A program made the position numbers and the translations under genes. From a virus, in IMG/VR virus record IMGVR_UViG_3300047388_000292, positions 1 through 64,000 of that record: 64,000 nucleotides of DNA; one strand, given 5' to 3'. Of this stretch, positions 4,504 through 26,432 are shown one piece after another (positions within the stretch are counted from its first letter, which is position 1; every line of letters begins with the position of its first letter). The notes under the pieces were generated by a model. The model made no database searches and was not told the DNA's origin. It saw only the letters and a list, made by a program, of their open reading frames with translations.

Positions 4504-5739
4504 TCATGTAACCGGCGCTCGTTGAAACTGCTGTGCATCTGTCCACATCTTCGCGAACGTCCCAGTCGATGGATCCCACACCACGTCGACCTCCGCCAAC
4601 GGGCCATGCCGGAACTTCAGCATCTTGATCCGCATCTTCGACTGCGCTCGCATCCCTTCGTCCTGCATCATTCCGAGGTAGAGGTCAGCAGCCTGGTACA
4701 CGGAGATGCTGCCACCCATATTCGTCCGTGATGACCCTCCCTCGGCGGCGTCCCTGCCATCCTGCGAGACCATGATGACCGCGGTATCGGTATCCATCGC
4801 GATCGTCTTCAAGTCATTGGTGATGTTCTCCAACTGCTCCCATTTCGGCACCCGCGTCGCGTACGACATCTTCATCCGCTGCACATAATCGATCGCACAG
4901 ACATCAGGCTTGTATCTCTCGATCTCAGCGTGGACACGATCGATCGTCCCTCCGCCGAAGCGGTCAAGAATCAATATCTCTCCCCGCGCCTTCGAGTAGA
5001 CCCGAGAGACGTCGCGCCAATGCTTGACCTGCATATCACTGAGGTCGTGACGCATGAAATCACTGTGCTTCCAGTGCATGACCATCGTGTGCAGACGATC
5101 TTCAACCTCGCGAGCAGACATCTCGGCCGAAAGCAAGAGTGCAACCTTGTCGTCTTCGAAAGCGCCTAGTAAATTGACCCCGGTAAGGAAGGATTTTCCG
5201 AGCCCGCTGAAACCGGCGTTCGTGACAACCCATCCCGGCTTGATGCCATCAGTCGTCTGATCGACTATCGGGATTCCGAGCGGCGTGCCTGGACGATGCT
5301 TTCCGTGCTCTTCTTCATACGCCTGGATCCGGAGTTCGAAGTCCTCAGAGAATCGTGCAACACGGCCGGAAGGAATGACCGTCGCAATCTCGCGAGCCGC
5401 CTCGAGCATGACCTCGTGCAAACTTCCTCGGCGATTCCAGTACTCCGGGTCCGACTTCGGCATCATCGAAAGTTCGATGACCTTCGCCTCGAAGTAGCGC
5501 CGGCGGACCTCAGCTAGGAACTCATCGAGTAGAGCCTCTACTGGCTCCGAGCTGTACTCGCCTCGCCAGTTCGGGAAGTTGTGCTGGACGAAAGACGCTG
5601 AGGGACAAGATCCATACTTGCGCGCGTACTCAGACGCCCAAGAGAAGATCTGGCCTACTTCTCGTCCCGGTTCATCCTGAGTGAAAAGCTCAGAAACAAC
5701 TCCCCGGGAGATGAGAAGATGTATGTTGCCCTCCGCCAA
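4504..5739 (-). CDS. DnaB-type replicative helicase
   Basis: A RecA-fold ATPase of 411 residues as drawn. The N-terminal helical part (1-145) resembles the DnaB N-domain. The motor domain has a Walker A variant GFSGLGKS (176-183), SAEMS, the Walker B region CAIDYVQ (281-287), then VSQ (DnaB H4-like) and IKMLKFRHGP near the end. It would unwind DNA at the phage fork. The TTG at 5739 has no good ribosome site. The frame is open upstream, and a strong GGAGAGG lies just before an ACG at 5772, so translation may begin there and add 11 residues starting TDVQRALVAKS. A promoter lies at 5846-5875. Confidence 0.85.
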   Translation of the reverse strand: MAEGNIHLLISRGVVSELFTQDEPGREVGQIFSWASEYARKYGSCPSASFVQHNFPNWRGEYSSEPVEALLDEFLAEVRRRYFEAKVIELSMMPKSDPEYWNRRGSLHEVMLEAAREIATVIPSGRVARFSEDFELRIQAYEEEHGKHRPGTPLGIPIVDQTTDGIKPGWVVTNAGFSGLGKSFLTGVNLLGAFEDDKVALLLSAEMSAREVEDRLHTMVMHWKHSDFMRHDLSDMQVKHWRDVSRVYSKARGEILILDRFGGGTIDRVHAEIERYKPDVCAIDYVQRMKMSYATRVPKWEQLENITNDLKTIAMDTDTAVIMVSQDGRDAAEGGSSRTNMGGSISVYQAADLYLGMMQDEGMRAQSKMRIKMLKFRHGPLAEVDVVWDPSTGTFAKMWTDAQQFQRAPVT

Positions 5740-14037: not shown

Positions 14038-15201
14038 TCACGCAGTCGACGTAAACGTAGTTTGAAAATTAGTTACCGTCTCTACTCCCTCATCACTGAT
14101 TCCAACTGTAAACGCGAATATCCTCACCGGTTGAGGACCAGAAAACCCAGATCCAGGCGGAGGAATCACGATCGATCCATAGTTAGAGACCAGATAACAA
14201 AAGTCCCCAATGTCAAAATCGACAAAGGGATTCAACGACGACGGAGACCCAGACGGAAGTTGATCAAACGAGTAGACCGTAATTCCATAGGCATTCGTCG
14301 TCGCTTCTCCTTGCGCGAATGCTGTGAGCACATCCGTCGTAACCTGATCAGAAATCGAAGTCTGCGACGTGAAGAGCCCAAGAGTCTGAATAGATCCAGG
14401 CCACTCTCCCTCGCCAACTGCGTACTGCCCGACTGCATAGACCTCATTCTCGATCTTCGATGCATCCTCTGTGGGACGTATATCCGAGAGGTTATTCGGG
14501 CCCTGCTTGAAACCAAAGAGCGCATTTGGGCGTACCTGCCCCCGTCCGTTGACCGTATAGGGTCCACCTACCGGCCAGATCCCGTTGTAGTAGAGATTGA
14601 GCTGGCGCGTCATTGGGTCAACTCGAAAATCAAATCCAGCCTCGAGTTGTGACAGCGTCGTGATCTGTTGGCCGATGTTCGCAAAGCGCTGAACTGTGAA
14701 GTTCCTAGTCTGAGTGTTCGCCGGCGTCTGTCCCATCGTCACGTAAATTGGAGCTCCCTGAGACTGCGAATCATAGATGCCTCTAGATAAGAGGTCGGCA
14801 ACGATTGCACATTGATCGACACTCGTATACTGCTGAGAAGTCGCAGTAGTCGTAGGCGATGGGCCTACATCCGAGTTGGAGCCAGTCTTCAGCAGATAGT
14901 GATTGAGCTTCTCAAACCACCCAACACATCCAATCTGCATCTGCGCCCGAGCTCCAGAGGGGGCAATTGTCCACACCGGACCTGACCACACAAGACTGTT
15001 GTTCCGATAGCAGATGATGCAAGTCGATACTTTCTTGACGAGCGCTGCCGCGGGATCTAGGACAGACAACGCCAACGATGCCGACTCGCGTGAGTTGAGC
15101 TGCGGGGTGATCGTCCTTGACGTCGCATTCGAGAGCTCCGCGAGGATCGACATATCTGACGACCGCGCTAGAAACCAATTCCAACTCGGGCTGGATGCCA
15201 T
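14038..15201 (-). CDS. Minor tail protein
   Basis: 387 residues, following the 15203 gene. It contains VDPMTRQLNLYYNGIWP and ALFGFKQGPNNLSDIRPTED, then FVDFDIGDFCYLVSNYGS and EGVETVTNFQTTF at the end. This fits the actinophage minor tail proteins of baseplate/tip type, which carry strand-rich domains. Starts MASSPSWNWFLARSSDMS two bases after the stop upstream. Confidence 0.65.
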   Translation of the reverse strand: MASSPSWNWFLARSSDMSILAELSNATSRTITPQLNSRESASLALSVLDPAAALVKKVSTCIICYRNNSLVWSGPVWTIAPSGARAQMQIGCVGWFEKLNHYLLKTGSNSDVGPSPTTTATSQQYTSVDQCAIVADLLSRGIYDSQSQGAPIYVTMGQTPANTQTRNFTVQRFANIGQQITTLSQLEAGFDFRVDPMTRQLNLYYNGIWPVGGPYTVNGRGQVRPNALFGFKQGPNNLSDIRPTEDASKIENEVYAVGQYAVGEGEWPGSIQTLGLFTSQTSISDQVTTDVLTAFAQGEATTNAYGITVYSFDQLPSGSPSSLNPFVDFDIGDFCYLVSNYGSIVIPPPGSGFSGPQPVRIFAFTVGISDEGVETVTNFQTTFTSTA

Positions 15202-15923: not shown

Positions 15924-18812
15924 TCAGATCCACGCCGAGTTCCATGCAACAGTGGCGGAAGGACTCCCAATTGGGTTTGAGCCGGCAAGTTGAAGAATGT
16001 TATCCGCAGGCTGGATCTCAGGCCACCGCTGATTGTTGGTGTCAAACATCTGCATCACCGACGCCCCAGACTTGTTTGTCAGCGTATGGTTGAATGCGTC
16101 AATCTGAACAAAGTCCCCTTGTGCAATCGTCCCGTCTAGCGCGAAGCTAAACCCAGTCGAGAGGTTGTAGAGGACTGGATTTGTGATCCCTCCATTGATC
16201 GTCACGAGCGGTCTCGCGACCCACGTTCCCTTGTTTGTCGCCACGGCCTGCTGCGTCGGACCTGCTGATTGCGTAAGAGGTTGATTCGATGGCAGTGAGG
16301 TGGGGACATTGTATGTAAGCGGATATGAACGAGGGTAAGACCGCCCGAAGTAGACACCTGATCCAGTTAGCAGAGGAACGATTGCACTCACCTGAACCGG
16401 ACACAAGATCCTCGGATCAGATGCTCTCACGGCAAACTGAAAATCTCTCGTGAACCTAGTCCCGGTCGCATTTTGAGATATGTGAGATATCGCCGGCGAC
16501 TGCACGGTTCTAGCATTTAGGACAAAATCACAGGGCATGATTGCGTCTACACGCCAGTCAAGGAACGCCCACTGGCCTCCGAGCTGCGTAGCCGTGAGCC
16601 CAACGAATCCCGATTGCTTGTAACCAAACGCTTGAGCCAGCGCTCCTGTCAGCGTTGTGAAGCAAGTCGCTAGAACAGTCGGAGATTGGACTGCATGCGG
16701 ATCTTGCAAATAGACCGTCGCGACTACCGTGTCGTCGATCGTCTGCATTTGAACCCAGATGATGCTTGGAGTCGAGATCTGAGGACTAAGGGCTGCTGTC
16801 GCCAGTGTTGTCGTCCCAGAAGGCTGAATAGCTTGTATCGCTACCTGCCATGTTGCTCCGGTGTACTGAAGTACAGCCTGGAGATAAGAGTTCGATGCAG
16901 TGGCGGCAGAGATAACACCAATCGACTGCACAGTAGCCGTAGGTTGAAGCGCGACAGATGCCGTCACAACCTCATCGACAAACCCACCGCGAAGATTGTG
17001 GTAAGAGACTGTAGCTCCGCCGCTAAATGACGTGCATCGGCCATTCCCAGGTATCGACAGAGATTGCCCAGACAACTGCGACCAAAAAGCAACCGACTGA
17101 GAATCAAAGAACGCATCGTGCTGGTCCCACCAGTTGAACTTGATCGGGAACTCGGTCAGAGATTGGAGCGCTGCGAAAACAGCTAGCGCTGCGGCTGTCT
17201 GCGACGATACAAGTCCAATTGTCGGAGGAGACCCAAGGACTGCTACAAGATCTCGCTCCATCGCATTGAGTTCAGGTACCGACCCAGCTTCCATTGTGCC
17301 TGCGATCGTAACCGTGTTGTGCGTCGGGATCATTGACTCGCCAATGAGGTAGAGATGGCTCGGAGAATCAACGGAAATACAACGCATCGGGACGCTATCT
17401 ATCTGATTGACAGCAGTGATATATCGGTATTGCTCGTGCTCTGGATAGCGAATCTTGGAGCGACGATAGAGAAGTAGATCCGTCTTACGGCTAAGGCGGA
17501 ACGGACTATCTTCCGTGACAAACTGAACACGATAAGAAATCCCAGTGCATTTTTCGTACAGTCTCGCCCACTTGCTTGTGAGCGTCGGTCGATACCCAAG
17601 TGACCGAGCTAACTCAAGAACTTGGAGCGCAAGATGCTCAAGAGTAGAATCAAACTGAACTTCGCCTTTATCACCCACTGTTCCATCTGTATCGAGCAGA
17701 CCAGCAAGGAGTGCCCGACGTTGTTCGACAGAAGCTTCAAGGTACAAGCGAGGGATATGCTTGTTTCTATAGACGTCTAGATCACGAAGGATAGAAGGAA
17801 CACTTGGCCCTTCTATCGATCGGAAAGAATACGTAATAGGCCCTTTTAGTTTCCTAGTTGCATACCCGTCATGACTGACGTTTTCAATGACCTCTGGGTC
17901 GGCTGAGTAAATCTCTGGACTCCAACGACTTCCATCTCCCAGCCACGCCCCAAACGTATATGGAGCTAATGGAAGCTCTTTTACCACATATTGCAGAGGA
18001 CCAGCAACTCGAACTGCATGATTGACTACTCCATTAGGCCGTGAAGGAGCATGACTGGTATAGAGAGTTGCACGGATTTCTTCGGTTGTATGAATCTTGG
18101 CACTGCCACACCCAGACTTTTCCAACATCTGAATCTTGTGCTGAGCAGATGCGACAGCCGCTTCCGTCTCACTATCAAAGAGACCAATAGGTATGTGGCT
18201 TCTTGCAGGTCCGTAATACGCTAACCATCGGTCACCTTCTCGACATACCCCTCGATATCTAGATGTGGCTAGCTTGCGTCGATTGGAGACCCGAGGTTGA
18301 TGAACACGCTGACGTCGGATACGGGCTTCGAAATCAACTGTCTCCCATAGGTGATCTGCATCGGCAATGATTATTGTTCCATCTGAGAACACAACTTCGC
18401 GACAAGGTCTCCCTGATGGCTGCGGGTAGACGCCTGTGACATTACATGGATGACCAAGATCATCAAATACTTGATCACCTACATGAAGATCACCGAAAAG
18501 TTTCCATCCATTAGGTGTCGGAATAGGATGCGAACATGCGTTCGCTTTTCCGCCCCAATAACTGTCAAACAAAACTTCACCGTGCGCGGCAGGTCGAGGC
18601 TGCCGAGAGTCTCGAAGATCAGGTCCACGCAGTCCAGTGATGTCCTTGACGATGTATCTGTCCGGACGCAATCGATCGTTGATCACGAGCTGGTTGGCGA
18701 GAATGATTGGAGCATTGCGACCGAGCGCAAGCATCTCCGGAATTTCCGGAAAACGATGCTGATAGTTTGGGACCGCAGTCCGTGCTATCTGTTGAGCAAT
18801 AACTGGAGTCAT
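15924..18812 (-). CDS. Minor tail protein containing an intein
   Basis: 962 codons: N-extein residues 1-92, intein 93-499, C-extein 500-962. After splicing the protein would be 555 residues. The N-extein (LRPDRYIVKDITGLRGPD, SYWGGK) and the first C-extein part (TVTIAGTMEAGSVPELNAM) match the start of actinophage distal-tail/minor tail proteins. The rest is strand-rich (GSGVYFGRSYPRSYPLTYN). Cys93 and the closing His-Asn followed by Thr500 give the splice junctions. It lies between small tail genes, after the tape measure gene in transcription order. Confidence 0.8.
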   Translation of the reverse strand: MTPVIAQQIARTAVPNYQHRFPEIPEMLALGRNAPIILANQLVINDRLRPDRYIVKDITGLRGPDLRDSRQPRPAAHGEVLFDSYWGGKANACSHPIPTPNGWKLFGDLHVGDQVFDDLGHPCNVTGVYPQPSGRPCREVVFSDGTIIIADADHLWETVDFEARIRRQRVHQPRVSNRRKLATSRYRGVCREGDRWLAYYGPARSHIPIGLFDSETEAAVASAQHKIQMLEKSGCGSAKIHTTEEIRATLYTSHAPSRPNGVVNHAVRVAGPLQYVVKELPLAPYTFGAWLGDGSRWSPEIYSADPEVIENVSHDGYATRKLKGPITYSFRSIEGPSVPSILRDLDVYRNKHIPRLYLEASVEQRRALLAGLLDTDGTVGDKGEVQFDSTLEHLALQVLELARSLGYRPTLTSKWARLYEKCTGISYRVQFVTEDSPFRLSRKTDLLLYRRSKIRYPEHEQYRYITAVNQIDSVPMRCISVDSPSHLYLIGESMIPTHNTVTIAGTMEAGSVPELNAMERDLVAVLGSPPTIGLVSSQTAAALAVFAALQSLTEFPIKFNWWDQHDAFFDSQSVAFWSQLSGQSLSIPGNGRCTSFSGGATVSYHNLRGGFVDEVVTASVALQPTATVQSIGVISAATASNSYLQAVLQYTGATWQVAIQAIQPSGTTTLATAALSPQISTPSIIWVQMQTIDDTVVATVYLQDPHAVQSPTVLATCFTTLTGALAQAFGYKQSGFVGLTATQLGGQWAFLDWRVDAIMPCDFVLNARTVQSPAISHISQNATGTRFTRDFQFAVRASDPRILCPVQVSAIVPLLTGSGVYFGRSYPRSYPLTYNVPTSLPSNQPLTQSAGPTQQAVATNKGTWVARPLVTINGGITNPVLYNLSTGFSFALDGTIAQGDFVQIDAFNHTLTNKSGASVMQMFDTNNQRWPEIQPADNILQLAGSNPIGSPSATVAWNSAWI
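17316..18536 (-). mobile_element. Intein with LAGLIDADG and AP2-like domains
   Basis: 407 residues. Splicing blocks: Cys1 (CSHPIPTPNGWKLFGDL), a block B with ADADHLW, and the C-terminal blocks VPMRCISVDSPSHLYLIGES then PTHN, with Thr as the next residue. Two homing motifs are visible: TFGAWLGDGSR (whole-protein residues 286-296) and LLAGLLDTDGTVGD (368-381). Between block B and the first motif, residues about 184-230 (SRYRGVCREGDRWLAYYG, IGLFDSETEAAVA) match an AP2-type DNA-binding domain. It should splice out of the tail protein and may cut intein-free alleles. Confidence 0.85.
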
Positions 18813-19159: not shown

Positions 19160-19707
19160 GACAGCGGACTCACCCAGCGGACGGAGAAGTGCTGGTACGG
19201 CCAGTTCGTTGATCCGTAGCAGTTAGTGGTTGCGGTGCCGACATAATGCGGAAATAGGTACTGCCCTGCGGTCATCTTGACGAGCGCCGAAATAACGGCA
19301 TTACCAATCAAGCCCGCACCCGCATCATGTGCAATCCAAAAACAACCCTGCGGCGTGCCAAGGGAGCCGGATCTGTTGGGTGGAAACAGTTGAAGGTCAA
19401 CACCTATGAACACGCCGCCCGTCGCACCCTGATCTATACGAAGGTTCAAGTCAACCTGATACCACCCATCAATGGGGACATTCGGGCCGTTGTTGAAGGC
19501 ATCGTTGCCCATGCCACCCAACAAGTCCTGAGTGGGGAAGGCGAGGTAGCTGGAAGCAGACACCGTGTCCGCTGCCTGCATGTGCCCTACGTAGATAGGA
19601 GGCGCCGCCGGGATCGGAGTAGCTACAAGTCTCTCTAGGATCGCTACTCGATGCTCCAGACTCGTAGGAGCAGGGATATGTTGGGGATTAGTAACTACTC
19701 TCGTCAT
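19156..19707 (-). CDS. Tail fibre-like protein, 183 aa
   Basis: From the ATG at 19707, which overlaps the tape measure stop (ATGA). A short helical N-terminus (LEHRVAILERLVATP, likely trimerising) precedes a jelly-roll-like domain: GWYQVDLNLRIDQGATGG, then AVISALVKMTAGQYLFPHYV and QHFSVRWVSPLS at the end. This is the TNF/C1q-like pattern of receptor-binding tips. Function inferred from fold pattern and position. Confidence 0.6.
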   Translation of the reverse strand: MTRVVTNPQHIPAPTSLEHRVAILERLVATPIPAAPPIYVGHMQAADTVSASSYLAFPTQDLLGGMGNDAFNNGPNVPIDGWYQVDLNLRIDQGATGGVFIGVDLQLFPPNRSGSLGTPQGCFWIAHDAGAGLIGNAVISALVKMTAGQYLFPHYVGTATTNCYGSTNWPYQHFSVRWVSPLS

Positions 19708-22700
19708 GGTGAAGTCGCCGAGTGCCATGCAATCGCCGCGCCCAGATAGCGCGGGTCAGTTGTCTGTGTAGGATTCGTGAGGTTGACATTGATGTTCTGA
19801 GTATTGGTGGAAGAGATCGAAGCTGATCCAGGCACGAATGGGACTCCGATGCCAGATCCACTCGCCGGGTTCGAGAACTGTGGAAGAAGAGCACCCATCC
19901 CAGTAAACATCGCTGCACGGAATGAAGACCACATCGTCGAAGAAAACGATTGAGGTTGCATCAACTGCCCGTTGAGAGTCATGAGTTGTTGGGTATTCGT
20001 TTCGAGTGCTGCCTCGTTCGAAGCGATCTGACCGATCAACCCCTCGAATTGCGTTGTCTGAGCTGCAGTCATCCCCGACTCGAGCTGAGAGATGGGGAGA
20101 GACGTCAGAGCTTGGATCAGTCGGACCCCTGACAGACCTTGCAGATTCACTGCCCCACCAGTCATCCCGGAAAGCTGCGAAATCAAACCTCCCTGTGCTC
20201 CCTGAAGTGCGTTGATCGATCCCTGTGTTACACCGATGGCTGCCGGCACATTTAGGCCACCCTGGATTGCCCCGATCGTCTGAAGCGCTCCGTACAGAGA
20301 TCCGAAAACCCCAGTCTGGAACTGAGAGACACGATTGATCCAATCGATCGTCGTCTGTCGAATCGCAACAGTCTGGTCTGAGAGCGCCTGCGTATTCTCT
20401 GCGATCTGTTCGGTAAGTTGTCCGATCTGGTCTGATAGTTGCTGTGAAAGGGCTAAGTTTCCTTGTTCATTGGCTTGATGCAAGAACCCACGAGCTTGTG
20501 CAAGTTGCCCTCGAAGGTCTGCGCCGGTCTGCTGAAGAACTCCATACTGAAGCTGTGCAGCAATAGTCGTCGCAGCGCCGCCCATTCCCTGCACTCCCTT
20601 GGCGACGACATTCTGCGCAAATGAAGTCCGACGCTGAAGCACATTGTTCTGGTACTGAGATTGCTGAGTAAAGTACTCAACCTGAGCTTGGAGCAGTTGG
20701 GTGGTGTAATCCGCGATCGATTGATTGAGTTGCTGGATCTGCTGCTCGGCTTGCGCGGCGACATCCTTGTTGCCCTCGGCTTGAGCCTTCTGGAGAACTT
20801 TCGTGTAAGCAGTGATCTGGGACTGAGCATTCGAAACAAGTTGATTCGTAACCGACACACCCTCTTGGCCCTTGCCAAAGAATCCACGGTTCTGCATGGT
20901 GGAAACCTGACCTTGTAGCCCTTGACTTTGCAACCCAAGCGTGTTCTGGATGCCTGACATCTGATCTGAGAGTTCAGTCCCCTCTGCCTGATAAAGCGAT
21001 TCTAAAGCTTGAGCGCTTTCGCCGGAGAGAGTCTGTGATCGCCCAACGAGATTTCCATACTGAAGTGCTAGTTTATTCGCCTGAGCGGCAGGGGAGAGAT
21101 GTTTGTTCTGGTTCTTCAGCTCTGAGATCTTCTTCTGAATCAGAGAGATCTTCAAAGCCTTATCTCGCCTGCCTCTAGATGTTACAGGAGTCTCGTTGTG
21201 CGCAACTCTAAGTTGTGTATTGAGACTGCTGATGCTCTTGTTATTTTCTGTAATCTGATGTTGGTCAGACGCACTTGCACGAACAGAAGCTAGTTGCTCA
21301 ATCTGCAACGGTGTATCTGACGCAAGGCTACGCTCACTAACGTGCAATCCCGACGCAAGTTGTGAGAGCACATCATGCTTGGCACTATCGACTAACTTTT
21401 GTTCTCGACCGATATTACGGTACTCAGTCCTGTATGCCCCAATAGTCGCCGCATCCTGTTGCGCTGGAGTCTCTCTCTGAACCGCAAGCCCCTGCTTATT
21501 CACGAAGATCGAGCTTTGCACAATCTTGTTTGACGCCTGAGTAAACATTGCTTGGACAGCTTGATCGAGCTGATCTAGTGGACCGCCTTGAGCCGTAATC
21601 TGACCAAGGTAGTTCATGAACTTAGTGAAATTCCCAACTACATCGTGCAGACCTGTGGAGAGAAGAGTGATCAACCTCGAGATATCCTTGGGAGAAATTG
21701 ACTGAGTCTGACCAGCGGCTGACAACTGAGCCAGAATCTGTATGAACTTCATGACCTGAGGGAGGGATATATTCAGTTGCGTCGCTGCCAAGCCAGCGCT
21801 TCCTGCTGTCCCAATCCCTCCAAACATGCCGCCTGTCTGCGCCGGCGTGATCGCTACATGCTCAGAAGCACCACCTTCTCCAGCAAGGAACATCGTCGGA
21901 TGATCCACAATCCCGTGGAATCCACCAGCGGCCGGAATGATTCCACCTGACTTATAACCAAGGAACTGTCTAAATGAAATACCACCGGGCATTGGTGTTC
22001 CATCGGCATGACCGTTATACCGAGTCAGAGGACCAGTTCCTGCAGCATTCGCCCACCCAGTCTCGATCCCAGACGGCCCACCCATCGCGGTACCAATAAA
22101 TTGTCCCCCTGTGAGTTGCTGCCCGGGCTGCACACCAGGAGTGAAGTCCTCCATGACATAGACGTTCCCGCGTGCAGTCTTATAAACAACGCCTCCTGTC
22201 CCCGGCCAACCCGGCCAGAGCCCGATCGACATAACAGTTCCAGGTAAGACCGCATCTACGCGTCCTTGCCCTCCAAAGTCCACACCCTGGTCAGTGCGCC
22301 CCAAATGAAGCGCTGAATAAGCCCCATGAGCTCCAGATCCTCCAGGCGCTCCAAACGGAACTCCTGCCGCTCCACTAGGAGCCATTTTCGAAAGAAATGC
22401 ATTAGCAGCAGCAGTAACATTTTTCAACACAGCTCCGCCGAGTACTGACCACGCTCCCCCAGGCCCACTCCACTTTGGCTGAGTTATTGTCTGAGCCGCA
22501 CCTGAACTTCCAAGCGCCCCAGGAGGAATACCGCCCTTCAGGAACTGCTTGTAAGCCCCCGACGTATATGTAGCCCATGCCCCAAGCCCTTGTGAACGCC
22601 ACTTCGAGACTGCCATCTTCGCATTTGTCAGCGGATCGAATACATTCCCAGGGAATGGGAGTCCCAAGATTTGCCACAGCCCTGAAGCACCTGAGGGATT

Positions 22701-25700
22701 GTGCGCGTCGACCGCTCCAGTTGACTCAGCCTCAGCGATAGCAGCCATAAGTGCGGCCATGTTGGGTGGTCCGCCAGCCTGATCCCAAAGACTTTCGAGC
22801 TGACCATATGACTCAATCGTTCCTCCTGCCGCATAAGAGCCCTGTAGAACGTGTGGAGCAGACGATAGATACTGAGCTAGCAACGCTCGCTGACGCTTCG
22901 CATGCTTCGGGTCGGTAGTCAAGACAACCTCGGGGTAACCACCCTCAGCAACTTGAATGATCTTTCCGCCCGGACGCGCTGACTCATACCCGCCAGTTGC
23001 ATGATGACCAATCCCCGCAGCACCACCTCCAGTTCCCCCACCGGCTGCCTGGAACTGCAACCAATTCATCGTGCTGATTGGCCCTAGTGTCTTCATGTCT
23101 TTGCCAGTCAGCGCAGGCGCACCCATAGATTTGAGCGCATTATTCATCAGAGTATTGATCGCTACCAACCCGTTTTGCACGCTCCTGGCAGCAAGATTGG
23201 TATTACCAGCGATTGTCTGATATGCGCCGGTCATCACAGCAACAAGAGCTTGTGACCCCTGCACAGTCCCAGTACCAAGGTTCGTGCTGATGTTTGCGAT
23301 GTTAGTCTGAACGACCTGCTTGACTTGCGTAAGAACATTTCCTGTCGTCGCATTGATTCCAGAGAATGTCGAGTCCCACAACTTTCCAGCAGCCACTACT
23401 GCGGCATTGACTGGATCAAGTTGTTTAGCAAGGAGATTTAGCCCTGTACGTTGTTTCGTAGTCAGATCAGGCATATTGGAGATTGTTATGATCTGACCCT
23501 CGAGCTTATGAAGTTGCGAAGTTGACAACTGAGCAGGATCAGTGATTCCCTTCAGCTCTGTCTGCAATTGCTTGAGTGCAGTGCTCGTTGTGGCCGTGTT
23601 GACGCTCTGAGTCAACACACCACCACCTCTCTGGCCTGGCGCTCCTGTTATCACATCACGCTGAGCACCGACAGGCCCCAACAACGATGCAAGCCCTGGA
23701 GCAGTGGTGCCGTGTGATGGGCCTCCGCCAAACAGCGCAGCAACAACGGTTGGCGCAATGAATGTGCCCAACACAGCAGCAATAGAGCCCGCTCCTATCG
23801 CTACTCCACCTGCAGCGGCTCCACTGCCTGCGCCTGCTGCCGCAGGAGCGATTATGCCTCCAGAACCTCGCACAAACCCAGCAGGAACAGCCCCAGTCAC
23901 TTCTGCGGTCCTGATCTCAACACCAGCAACTCCGCCTCCAGAGATCATCGCTTCCCTGATCGCCGCAGCAGCAGCCGCTCCTCCCTCTTCAAATGCGAGT
24001 CGCATCTCTGCTGCCGGTCCCGTCGCTGCTGCCCCACCGCCAAAAGCATTCTTGAGGCTAGTCCACGCACCCCCAAAGTTTCCAGTCGCGAGTGCTTTCA
24101 GGGCTCCGCCGAGTTGACGGATCATCGACAATGGATGAATCACAGCTTTACCAAGTGCACTGAATCGACTGATTGCTGTCGAGAAGTCCCATGCCTTCCA
24201 AGCAACTAGGAACGCCCCGAACGGAATCAGCACACCGTCATTCCACAGTGTCTTGAAGGGACCTCCAACATAGGTTCCTAGATTCACAAAGCCATCGAGA
24301 ATCTTGGTGAATAGCTCAAGGAAGAGAGTGACCGCTTTAGTCAACGGAGGCGCCACGATCATGTAGAAACGACCAAATCCCTCAATCAGAGGGACTAATA
24401 GATTCAAGAGAGCAATAGCTTCTTGCTTGTGTACCTCGAAAATCGTGTGAAGCTGCTGTTGCCCGCGAGTCGACGTCAGCCAGTCATGCAACTTGTCAAG
24501 CATCTGCGTCAGCGTGGTAACGATCGACTGCGCAGTGCCGGCGTCGGCGTGGAAGATCTGGTAAATGTCTTTGACTAGGATCTCAAGAAAATTCTTCCAA
24601 GTCTCGAAGAGGCCTACCAGATGATCGACAAGGTGGGTTACCTTATTCCAGTTACCAGGATCATTCCACTTCGTGAAGAAGTTATCGACCGCAGTGATGA
24701 AGCCACCCTTGAGAAATGTGTTCGCTACATAATCGATGATCTTCGAGACAAGCTCGAACGCCTGCACAAACGCATGTACTGATTTGGGCAATCTCGCAGC
24801 GAATATGTTCTCAAGATCATTGAAGATCTTCTTGCCGGGGCCCTCTATATATTGGAACAGAGGACGTAGTCCAGCGTCGATAATCTTGAAGTTTCTTGTG
24901 GCCGCATTAGCGATCAACTGCACGTATCCGTACGCCACTCCGACGAGTTGCCCGAGGATTGTCGTAGCAGCCTTCCGGGCATTGCCCGTCGCGTTGTCCC
25001 AATGCTTGTTCAGGTTGTCGACTTGCTTCGCGAGTGCAAGTTCCGCTCCGGCACCAGGACCAAGCTGCGACATCTGGAACTTGAGCTGGGCATTCGCTGC
25101 CGTCTGCGCCTGCGCAAGGTTCTGCTGGGCGGTAGCAGCTTGCTGAGAGTTCTTTCCGTACTGCGCAACAGCAGCGTTGGCCTGCGCCTGCGCAAGCGCG
25201 ACATTCTGAGTATTGGTCTGGAGCGTCTTGTAAAGAGCACTCGTGTCAGAGATCGTCGACTTCATCACTGCAGCATCTGCGCCGCCTCCTACGGCAGTCG
25301 TAGCCAGCGAAGCGCCACCGAGTAGAGCTCCGCCTCCCAACGCCCCAGCGGCCGACCCAGCAAGTCCTATACCGGTCATCAGAAGGTGCTCGAGACCAAG
25401 ACCGGCAAAAGCTCCTAACGAACCTGCAGACGCGTACCTAAGTCCAGGCGTAAATCTACCTCCGCCTCCACCACCCCCTGTAAGCAGAGCCCCAAGACCT
25501 CCTCCGCCGCCTCCATCACCTACTGTCAAAATTAGTCTCGCAGCTTCGTCTCGAGCCATCCTCGCTGCGTAAGCAAACTTGATCGCCGCCGACGACGCCG
25601 GATCGAAGCTACGCGCGATCCCATCGAGTTCACGAGCCATCTGGCGATATCCGATTGACGCCGCGTTGGTGTCCATCGTTCCTTTTCGCAACGAGGCAGT

Positions 25701-26432
25701 AAAGCTGTCGTAGCGACGCTGAGTATTCGTTATGCGATCAACAAGTTGTTGATGAGCAGCCTGTTCCTTTTGAATCGCCAAAAGTTGAGCATCAGTATCC
25801 CGCTGTTGCTGCATGCGGATGTCGTGAACCGCGTTTGCATTAGCAACCTGCTGAGCGGTATATGCTGCAAGGTTGCTCTTGGACTCGTTGAGGATGTCCT
25901 GAACAGCTTTGGACTGGAGCGCATATTGCCGGGCTTCCTCCGTACCGACCTCGTACGCTCGAGCAAGCTTCGAGTACTCCTGAGCCAAGCGCTGCGCTTC
26001 GACCTCTTGCTGACGTGTCAGGGTCGTCTGCTTGTTGAAAGAGTCCTGGAGATTCCCCATGACCGCGTCAAGTCGCTCAGCCTGCTCCGCGAGCTTCGCC
26101 TCCTTGTCACCAGCGGTGTCTGCGGAGCGACTGTAATCATCAAGCGCAGTCTTCGCCTGCCTTACATCACTTGTCTGTTTCTGTGTAGCCTGAGATGCAC
26201 GATCAAGCGCTTGACGTTGCTTGTCGAGGCTTGTGGTCGCTTTATCAACAGATTCAGTTGTCTGCTGCAACCCTTGATCGAGCCCGGCGGTCGGGTGAGA
26301 ACGAACCGTCTCCGCGCCGGCGACCTTCTTCAGAGCCTCAATCTCAGCAGCAAGCTTCGCGAGACCGGGGCCAGCTCGGTCGATTAGATCGACGAGAATC
26401 TCAATAAGGAAGGTTGATGAATCCTCAGACAT
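19704..26432 (-). CDS. Tape measure protein with cell-wall domains
   Basis: 2242 residues, setting tail length. Residues 1-310 are coiled coil (AGPGLAKLAAEIEALKK onward). About 320-390 is Gly/Ala-rich and hydrophobic. The stretch to about 1180 is helical. Residues about 1200-1297 look like a lysozyme-like transglycosylase (MAALMAAIAEAESTGAVD, NPSGASGLWQI). Residues about 1354-1494 resemble an M23-type peptidase fold (RTDQGVDFGGQG), but the first His of the zinc site is replaced. The C-terminal third is again coiled coil rich in Gln. At the usual length-to-tail ratio of about 1.5 angstrom per residue the tail would be roughly 300 nm or longer. Confidence 0.9.
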   Translation of the reverse strand: MSEDSSTFLIEILVDLIDRAGPGLAKLAAEIEALKKVAGAETVRSHPTAGLDQGLQQTTESVDKATTSLDKQRQALDRASQATQKQTSDVRQAKTALDDYSRSADTAGDKEAKLAEQAERLDAVMGNLQDSFNKQTTLTRQQEVEAQRLAQEYSKLARAYEVGTEEARQYALQSKAVQDILNESKSNLAAYTAQQVANANAVHDIRMQQQRDTDAQLLAIQKEQAAHQQLVDRITNTQRRYDSFTASLRKGTMDTNAASIGYRQMARELDGIARSFDPASSAAIKFAYAARMARDEAARLILTVGDGGGGGGLGALLTGGGGGGGRFTPGLRYASAGSLGAFAGLGLEHLLMTGIGLAGSAAGALGGGALLGGASLATTAVGGGADAAVMKSTISDTSALYKTLQTNTQNVALAQAQANAAVAQYGKNSQQAATAQQNLAQAQTAANAQLKFQMSQLGPGAGAELALAKQVDNLNKHWDNATGNARKAATTILGQLVGVAYGYVQLIANAATRNFKIIDAGLRPLFQYIEGPGKKIFNDLENIFAARLPKSVHAFVQAFELVSKIIDYVANTFLKGGFITAVDNFFTKWNDPGNWNKVTHLVDHLVGLFETWKNFLEILVKDIYQIFHADAGTAQSIVTTLTQMLDKLHDWLTSTRGQQQLHTIFEVHKQEAIALLNLLVPLIEGFGRFYMIVAPPLTKAVTLFLELFTKILDGFVNLGTYVGGPFKTLWNDGVLIPFGAFLVAWKAWDFSTAISRFSALGKAVIHPLSMIRQLGGALKALATGNFGGAWTSLKNAFGGGAAATGPAAEMRLAFEEGGAAAAAAIREAMISGGGVAGVEIRTAEVTGAVPAGFVRGSGGIIAPAAAGAGSGAAAGGVAIGAGSIAAVLGTFIAPTVVAALFGGGPSHGTTAPGLASLLGPVGAQRDVITGAPGQRGGGVLTQSVNTATTSTALKQLQTELKGITDPAQLSTSQLHKLEGQIITISNMPDLTTKQRTGLNLLAKQLDPVNAAVVAAGKLWDSTFSGINATTGNVLTQVKQVVQTNIANISTNLGTGTVQGSQALVAVMTGAYQTIAGNTNLAARSVQNGLVAINTLMNNALKSMGAPALTGKDMKTLGPISTMNWLQFQAAGGGTGGGAAGIGHHATGGYESARPGGKIIQVAEGGYPEVVLTTDPKHAKRQRALLAQYLSSAPHVLQGSYAAGGTIESYGQLESLWDQAGGPPNMAALMAAIAEAESTGAVDAHNPSGASGLWQILGLPFPGNVFDPLTNAKMAVSKWRSQGLGAWATYTSGAYKQFLKGGIPPGALGSSGAAQTITQPKWSGPGGAWSVLGGAVLKNVTAAANAFLSKMAPSGAAGVPFGAPGGSGAHGAYSALHLGRTDQGVDFGGQGRVDAVLPGTVMSIGLWPGWPGTGGVVYKTARGNVYVMEDFTPGVQPGQQLTGGQFIGTAMGGPSGIETGWANAAGTGPLTRYNGHADGTPMPGGISFRQFLGYKSGGIIPAAGGFHGIVDHPTMFLAGEGGASEHVAITPAQTGGMFGGIGTAGSAGLAATQLNISLPQVMKFIQILAQLSAAGQTQSISPKDISRLITLLSTGLHDVVGNFTKFMNYLGQITAQGGPLDQLDQAVQAMFTQASNKIVQSSIFVNKQGLAVQRETPAQQDAATIGAYRTEYRNIGREQKLVDSAKHDVLSQLASGLHVSERSLASDTPLQIEQLASVRASASDQHQITENNKSISSLNTQLRVAHNETPVTSRGRRDKALKISLIQKKISELKNQNKHLSPAAQANKLALQYGNLVGRSQTLSGESAQALESLYQAEGTELSDQMSGIQNTLGLQSQGLQGQVSTMQNRGFFGKGQEGVSVTNQLVSNAQSQITAYTKVLQKAQAEGNKDVAAQAEQQIQQLNQSIADYTTQLLQAQVEYFTQQSQYQNNVLQRRTSFAQNVVAKGVQGMGGAATTIAAQLQYGVLQQTGADLRGQLAQARGFLHQANEQGNLALSQQLSDQIGQLTEQIAENTQALSDQTVAIRQTTIDWINRVSQFQTGVFGSLYGALQTIGAIQGGLNVPAAIGVTQGSINALQGAQGGLISQLSGMTGGAVNLQGLSGVRLIQALTSLPISQLESGMTAAQTTQFEGLIGQIASNEAALETNTQQLMTLNGQLMQPQSFSSTMWSSFRAAMFTGMGALLPQFSNPASGSGIGVPFVPGSASISSTNTQNINVNLTNPTQTTDPRYLGAAIAWHSATSP

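Follow-up and report, generated by a model that had tools for sequence, protein, structure and literature searches.

A probable class 3 LAGLIDADG intein with an AP2-like segment in a Dit-like minor tail protein gene of a phage

Introduction

Homing copies inteins only between alleles of one gene, and the entry of inteins into non-homologous genes is therefore a standing question. The question is raised by a phage minor tail protein gene, in which the original prediction had placed an intein. The gene resides in a stretch of 64 kb, hereafter the window, which is part of an IMG/VR phage record of 98,427 bp. The intein, its motifs and the tail host are borne out by the present analysis; the N-terminal boundary and the Cys assigned to residue 1 are not. 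With corrected boundaries, the feature is very probably a complete class 3 LAGLIDADG intein lodged in a Dit-like gene. Positions are those of the window unless another label precedes them, and ^ marks an insertion point or an extein-intein border.

The host gene and its neighbourhood

A single open frame of 962 codons (15924-18812, minus strand) spans exteins and intein. The C-terminal part of its product matches phrog_5577 (minor tail protein, 2.9e-18), phrog_33 (distal tail protein, Dit, 3.8e-8) and Pfam SPP1_Dit (PF22768, 2e-6; 28.4 bits, above the cut-off of 25), so that a virion tail protein as host, as originally proposed, is supported by all three profiles. The central region resembles profiles of terminases with inteins (phrog_19299, 1.6e-30; phrog_15, 1.2e-25), and the intein match is far beyond chance. 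The gene lies downstream of the tape measure gene, two small genes intervening, and more tail genes follow; tape measure gene, Dit and further tail genes is the usual siphophage order.

19704-26432, minus strand: tape measure protein, 2242 aa (size, position, weak phrog_1272, phrog_10613 and phrog_167 matches)
18546-18812, minus strand: N-extein, 89 aa, ending ...DSYWGGK (frame; alignment with intein-free Dit homologues)
15924-17315, minus strand: C-extein, 463 aa plus stop, beginning TVTIAG, Dit/minor tail C-terminal domain (SPP1_Dit, phrog_5577, phrog_33)
14038-15201, minus strand: minor tail protein, downstream of the Dit gene (phrog_1885, 2e-10)

Dit minor tail proteins of the phiBT1/phiC31 gp44 type have homologous exteins and occupy an equal position after the tape measure gene, but are intein-free. 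They also lack about 200 extra residues found, in comparison with phiBT1 gp44, between the N- and C-terminal Dit domains of the protein encoded here (15924-17315), possibly a carbohydrate-binding beta domain. The tape measure protein shows a weak transglycosylase SLT match, and a patatin-like phospholipase gene is found elsewhere in the same phage (L010:2163-3098, plus strand; Pfam 8.8e-21). No RNA family or tRNA was detected within the 64-kb window.

Boundaries of the intein

Close relatives were sought in viral contigs through the Dit, tape measure and neighbouring tail genes, and none was found. Since no close phage relative with or without the intein is available, the empty site has been deduced from homologues about 30% identical. 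Intein-free Dit homologues were found in Streptomyces phages (phiBT1 gp44, Samora, Lilbooboo, Heather, Sycamore, Shady). Had the region been a normal domain of the tail protein, some homologues might have carried it: all Dit homologues found lack it. At the junction they read DY(M/L)NGR-TVTLTLEV or DYMGGR-T(I/V)(S/A)LSLEV, versus DSYWGGK^intein^TVTIAGTM here. As these homologues join ...GR directly to TVT, the tripeptide ANA, which precedes the Cys taken originally as residue 1, is part of the intein. An N-terminal HMM made from nine Dit homologues assigns 14.6 bits to the spliced protein with the GGK^T junction, versus 6.7 bits with the Cys1 junction. This HMM was used instead of a whole-Dit MAFFT alignment, whose N-terminal part was shifted by the extra domain of about 200 aa.

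Class 3 DnaB inteins matched in the PDB align residue 4 to 4 or 3 to 3, and Ala is therefore residue 1. The start is set three codons upstream of 18536, at 18545, by Dit homologues, by the boundaries of 140 relatives and by the class 3 signature. It follows that the intein measures 410 aa rather than 407, and that the predicted spliced product has 552 residues rather than the 555 first calculated. The opposite end agrees with the original description: the intein terminates in ...MIPTHN, with terminal His-Asn intact, and is followed by Thr (+1).

17316-18545, minus strand: intein, very probably of class 3, 410 aa, Ala1...Asn410, corrected boundaries (Dit homologues, boundaries of relatives, PDB class 3 inteins)
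18534-18536, minus strand: Cys4, formerly read as Cys1, not conserved (position 4 in 236 parsed relatives)
18345-18353, minus strand: block B His65-x-Trp67 (H B:10, W B:12; invariant in 66 relatives; MchDnaB1 numbering identical)
18126-18263, minus strand: AP2-like segment, intein residues 95-140 (Pfam AP2 E=0.024; phage HNH homing endonuclease 9e-6; TEM1 AP2 0.053)
17931-17957, minus strand: LAGLIDADG motif 1, TFGAWLGDG, Asp204 (alignment of relatives)
17682-17711, minus strand: LAGLIDADG motif 2, LLAGLLDTDG, Asp287 (Pfam LAGLIDADG_3 and Hom_end, alignment)
17379-17381, minus strand: block F Cys389 (C F:4), predicted splicing nucleophile (invariant in 66; aligns with MchDnaB1 block F Cys)
17316-17324, minus strand: block G Thr408-His409-Asn410 (T G:5, penultimate His, terminal Asn; invariant in 66)
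Inferred empty Dit site, intein removed: TATTGGGGCGGAAAA^ACGGTTACG

Class assignment and predicted splicing

What defines a class 3 intein is a Trp at B:12, a Cys at F:4 and a Thr at G:5, together with a residue 1 that is no nucleophile (PMC3196547, PMC5050341, PMC7664689). The WCT triplet is complete in the Dit intein, with Trp67 in ADADHLW, Cys389 in MRCISVD and Thr408 in IPTHN. His65, Trp67, Cys389, Thr408, His409 and Asn410 are invariant in an alignment of 66 relatives. With the boundary set by homologue alignment, residue 1 is Ala, and no Cys, Ser or Thr nucleophile occupies this place. In the PDB, the sequences nearest to the Dit intein are those of two class 3 inteins, MchDnaB1 and M. 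smegmatis DnaB i1 (MsmDnaB i1), matched in register at E ~1e-25; Cys389 aligns with the block F Cys of 6rix and 6bs8. The AlphaFold model of the full intein has a HINT fold (pLDDT 89.9, with low confidence at residues 95-122 only). In a Foldseek search this model matched PI-SceI (2e-18) and the class 3 structures 6rix, 6riy and 6bs8 (~3e-7 to 6e-7, target TM ~0.8). MchDnaB1 (PDB 6rix) and MsmDnaB i1 (PDB 6bs8) thus share with the Dit intein the WCT triplet, the His65/Trp67 numbering, a non-nucleophilic residue 1, the THN end and the HINT fold; they differ as mini-inteins without endonuclease residing in helicases, whereas the Dit intein features LAGLIDADG and AP2-like parts and resides in a tail protein.

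Judging from these residues, the Dit precursor would splice by class 3 chemistry. Cys389 in block F, activated by His65 and acting with Thr408, would attack the Lys(-1)-Ala1 bond, and the acyl group would move from Cys389 to Thr+1. Asn410 would then cyclise with the assistance of His409, and the exteins would join as ...SYWGGK-TVTIAG... in a protein of 552 aa. Thr at +1 is a weaker nucleophile than Cys, but is common among relatives nonetheless. Both LAGLIDADG motifs of the original description are present: Pfam LAGLIDADG_3 (PF14528) and Hom_end (PF05204) score above cut-off, and the acidic residues D204 and D287 are kept. As both Asp residues are kept, endonuclease activity is plausible, and the LAGLIDADG part could cut the intein-less allele and sustain homing.

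Two other readings of the element have been weighed. Class 1 inteins usually begin with Cys, and a Cys near the start together with His-Asn^Thr at the end would suit a class 1 intein in which the Cys at 18536 is residue 1 and initiating nucleophile, and the product measures 555 aa. This reading is very unlikely and was rejected: the full WCT triplet is present, class 3 inteins are the nearest structures, removal of ANA from the extein improves the fit to Dit homologues by 8 bits, and numbering from Ala1 makes His65 and Trp67 coincide with the MchDnaB1 numbers. The Cys itself is not conserved: of 236 parsed relatives, 223 have L, I or V at position 4 and 2 have Cys (two scans overlap, so that this set includes certain contigs twice). 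Alternatively, the element might be a degenerate intein that no longer splices, leaving Dit interrupted or supplied by another copy. The sequence comes from a metagenomic contig, and a precedent exists in a class 3 intein pseudogene that has lost Cys F:4 and His B:10 (PMC3196547). Degeneration appears most improbable here, as all catalytic positions are intact, including the two lost in the pseudogene, the frame of 962 codons is open, both LAGLIDADG Asp residues are kept, and a non-exhaustive look at the record revealed no second Dit gene. A complete class 3 intein, predicted to splice, is the preferred reading.

The AP2-like segment

The stretch from block B to LAGLIDADG motif 1 is taken up by residues ~88-150. 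An AP2-type DNA-binding domain had been predicted in this place; the location is right, membership in the Pfam family is not supported. The score against Pfam AP2 (PF00847; 15.3 bits, E=0.024) is below the gathering threshold of 33.3, and the segment is accordingly named AP2-like only. The PDB sequence match is the AP2/ERF domain of TEM1 (0.053), and tblastn finds phage homing endonucleases, the best being that of Cronobacter phage GAP52 (9e-6). Modelled alone by AlphaFold, the segment folds as beta-beta-beta-alpha with low confidence (pLDDT ~60); TEM1 AP2 is among the matches of the Foldseek search of the PDB, none significant for this domain.

AP2 was found in none of the 140 relatives searched by regular expression and phmmer. 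When the 66 aligned members were searched as whole proteins with Pfam AP2 at E <= 0.05 none scored, the Dit intein itself included, which makes this a weak test. The segment possibly derives from an HNH-AP2 homing endonuclease. It probably adds DNA contacts to the endonuclease. In actinobacterial class 3 inteins of DnaB and FtsK genes (L092-L171; Micromonospora, Dactylosporangium, others), the slot between block B and motif 1 is occupied by an insert of another kind.

Relatives and their insertion sites

Class 3 relatives were parsed from two viral-contig scans and one genome scan. Samples were ranked by similarity and restricted by search patterns, so that rarity is bounded only loosely. Of the 140 relatives in the first sample, 133 lie between Lys and Ser/Thr, 130 show Gly at -2 and 108 start with Ala; the seven apparent exceptions to the Lys and Ser/Thr register are mostly parser errors, corrected on re-parsing. 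Hosts are nearly all Walker A proteins (GK^S/T), such as terminases, DnaB, FtsK-like and RecA-like proteins. The Dit junction has the Lys^Thr register used by class 3 inteins in these motifs. The same register marks the TerL1-a inteins of mycobacteriophages, inserted between the invariant P-loop Lys and Thr (Kelley et al. 2016, PMC5050341); inteins of class 1 as well as class 3 are described there from these phages. The TerL1-a inteins reside in the terminase Walker A, whereas the Dit intein interrupts a Dit strand.

Two hosts in the sample are not P-loop proteins: dCTP deaminase and, in Bxz1-group mycobacteriophages, a Cas4/RecB-like exonuclease. The closest relative by identity (47%), L169, is inserted in a dCTP deaminase at a GK^S site outside a P-loop (ARLEGK^SSLG); this class 3 intein spans L169:3501-4538 in a Chloroflexi MAG contig. 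Like the Dit intein, those of the Bxz1-group exonuclease (Ghost gp214) and of L169 lie between Lys and Thr or Ser in a non-NTPase gene. Their hosts, however, are enzymes of nucleotide or DNA metabolism and not virion parts, and they have no AP2-like segment.

The best full-length phage matches in a single piece are the DnaB intein of Brevibacterium phage Rousseau (OV696622, 35%) and the terminase intein of Stenotrophomonas phage SOVA965 (PP079418, 34%). Both are class 3 inteins with LAGLIDADG, as the Dit intein, and run from GK^A or GK^P to THN^T or S. In contrast to it, they occupy the P-loop of DnaB or terminase and lack the AP2-like segment. The Dit of Rousseau itself is intein-free. No other tail-gene host was recognized from flanking residues among parsed loci, and no tail-gene or Dit host is annotated in 60 phage records evenly sampled from the 732 with matches. 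In a FastTree phylogeny the Dit intein sits on a long isolated branch, with no specific donor.

Origin of the insertion

The usual sites of class 3 inteins are vacant in this phage, as the P-loops of terminase, DnaB, FtsK-like and RecA-like proteins are all empty. The terminase has a weak profile match (phrog_9, 1.2e-4) and a clear P-loop, GSRESGKT. The dCTP deaminase, with a VVGK^SS site, and the Cas4-like exonuclease are also uninterrupted.

4504-5739, minus strand: DnaB helicase, empty P-loop GFSGLGK^SF, usual class 3 site (Pfam DnaB_C; P-loop)

To measure the likeness of the Dit site to P-loop DNA, the genome was scored, after removal of the intein, with a weight matrix derived from 52 P-loop intein sites of viruses; the scoring was repeated with several window lengths and training sets. 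With the viral matrix, the Dit core GGCGGAAAA^ACG comes out at the top of 194,372 positions at -9..+3 and in second place at -12..+3, and drops to ranks 29 and 40 genome-wide with longer flanks. Matrices built from all sites, viral and genomic, place it at ranks 10-22 with short flanks and 214-241 with long ones. Among the 116-118 in-frame K^S/T sites, the viral matrix puts Dit first as long as no more than 12 upstream bases are included; longer flanks lower it to ranks 8-24. The resemblance to a P-loop is thus real at the core but short, being confined to ~15 bp. As the core is short and several windows were tried, the idea that the intein entered ectopically, at a mimic of a P-loop, is moderately supported.

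The most likely origin, and a fairly probable one, is an ectopic move of a P-loop-site intein into Dit. The endonuclease of such an intein would prompt its copying into the GGK^T codons of Dit, which mimic P-loop DNA. It is conceivable, and put forward tentatively, that class 3 inteins spread in this way beyond P-loop enzymes, by mimicry of the codons of a Walker A motif (GGK^T, GK^S). In this phage, with four empty P-loops of its own, the target would be a tail-hub gene, and a DNA-binding AP2-like domain from a phage HNH homing endonuclease would have helped. The site may have been reached instead regardless of P-loop likeness, by a tail-specific lineage whose endonuclease was retargeted to Dit by the AP2-like segment, the K^T register persisting solely through the preference of class 3 splicing for it. 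The long isolated branch, the presence of the AP2-like segment in the Dit intein alone within the sample, and flanks unlike P-loop sites past ~12 bp would fit such a history. It is nevertheless rather unlikely: the parsed loci and the 60 sampled records hold no further Dit intein, and masking the K and T codons leaves the core a near-best P-loop mimic, in second place among 118 sites and third among 117. Ectopic entry from a P-loop site remains the favoured origin.

Precedents and significance

The combination of parts had been thought rare. Rarity holds within some 140 relatives, where neither another tail-gene host nor AP2 was seen, and does not extend to structural genes in general, since other inteins in such genes of phages are known, including one in a phage minor head protein (PMC7468147). 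A further intein, in this case of class 1 type (Cys...VVLHN^S) and equipped with an HNH endonuclease, interrupts the portal gene of the same phage (P0002, 1336 aa). It looks unusual that one phage should carry inteins of two classes in two of its virion genes.

L010:11004-15014, corresponding to record positions 75004-79014, minus strand: portal gene with class 1 intein (Intein_splicing 2.5e-11, phrog_5351 HNH 1.5e-8, portal phrog_2662 1.3e-5)

Neither a Dit host nor an AP2-like segment in a class 3 intein is reported in the literature searched, most subscription journals lying outside it, and published accounts of MIJ3, cluster J, phiCbK, IBB_35, the ShiLan element and Oenococcus X27 describe no Dit-gene intein. 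Class 3 inteins were already known; the Dit host and the AP2-like segment are what is new with respect to the searchable literature.

The Dit intein is a concrete and testable candidate for an ectopic event, in which an intein of P-loop type is found in a structural gene, at DNA resembling a P-loop, in a phage whose own P-loops are empty. Class 3 splicing would, moreover, take place here in a protein of the tail tip, one that must undergo processing before assembly. Splicing of mycobacterial DnaB inteins is reported to respond to environmental stress (PMC6195587); given that report, assembly of the virion could in principle depend on intracellular conditions.
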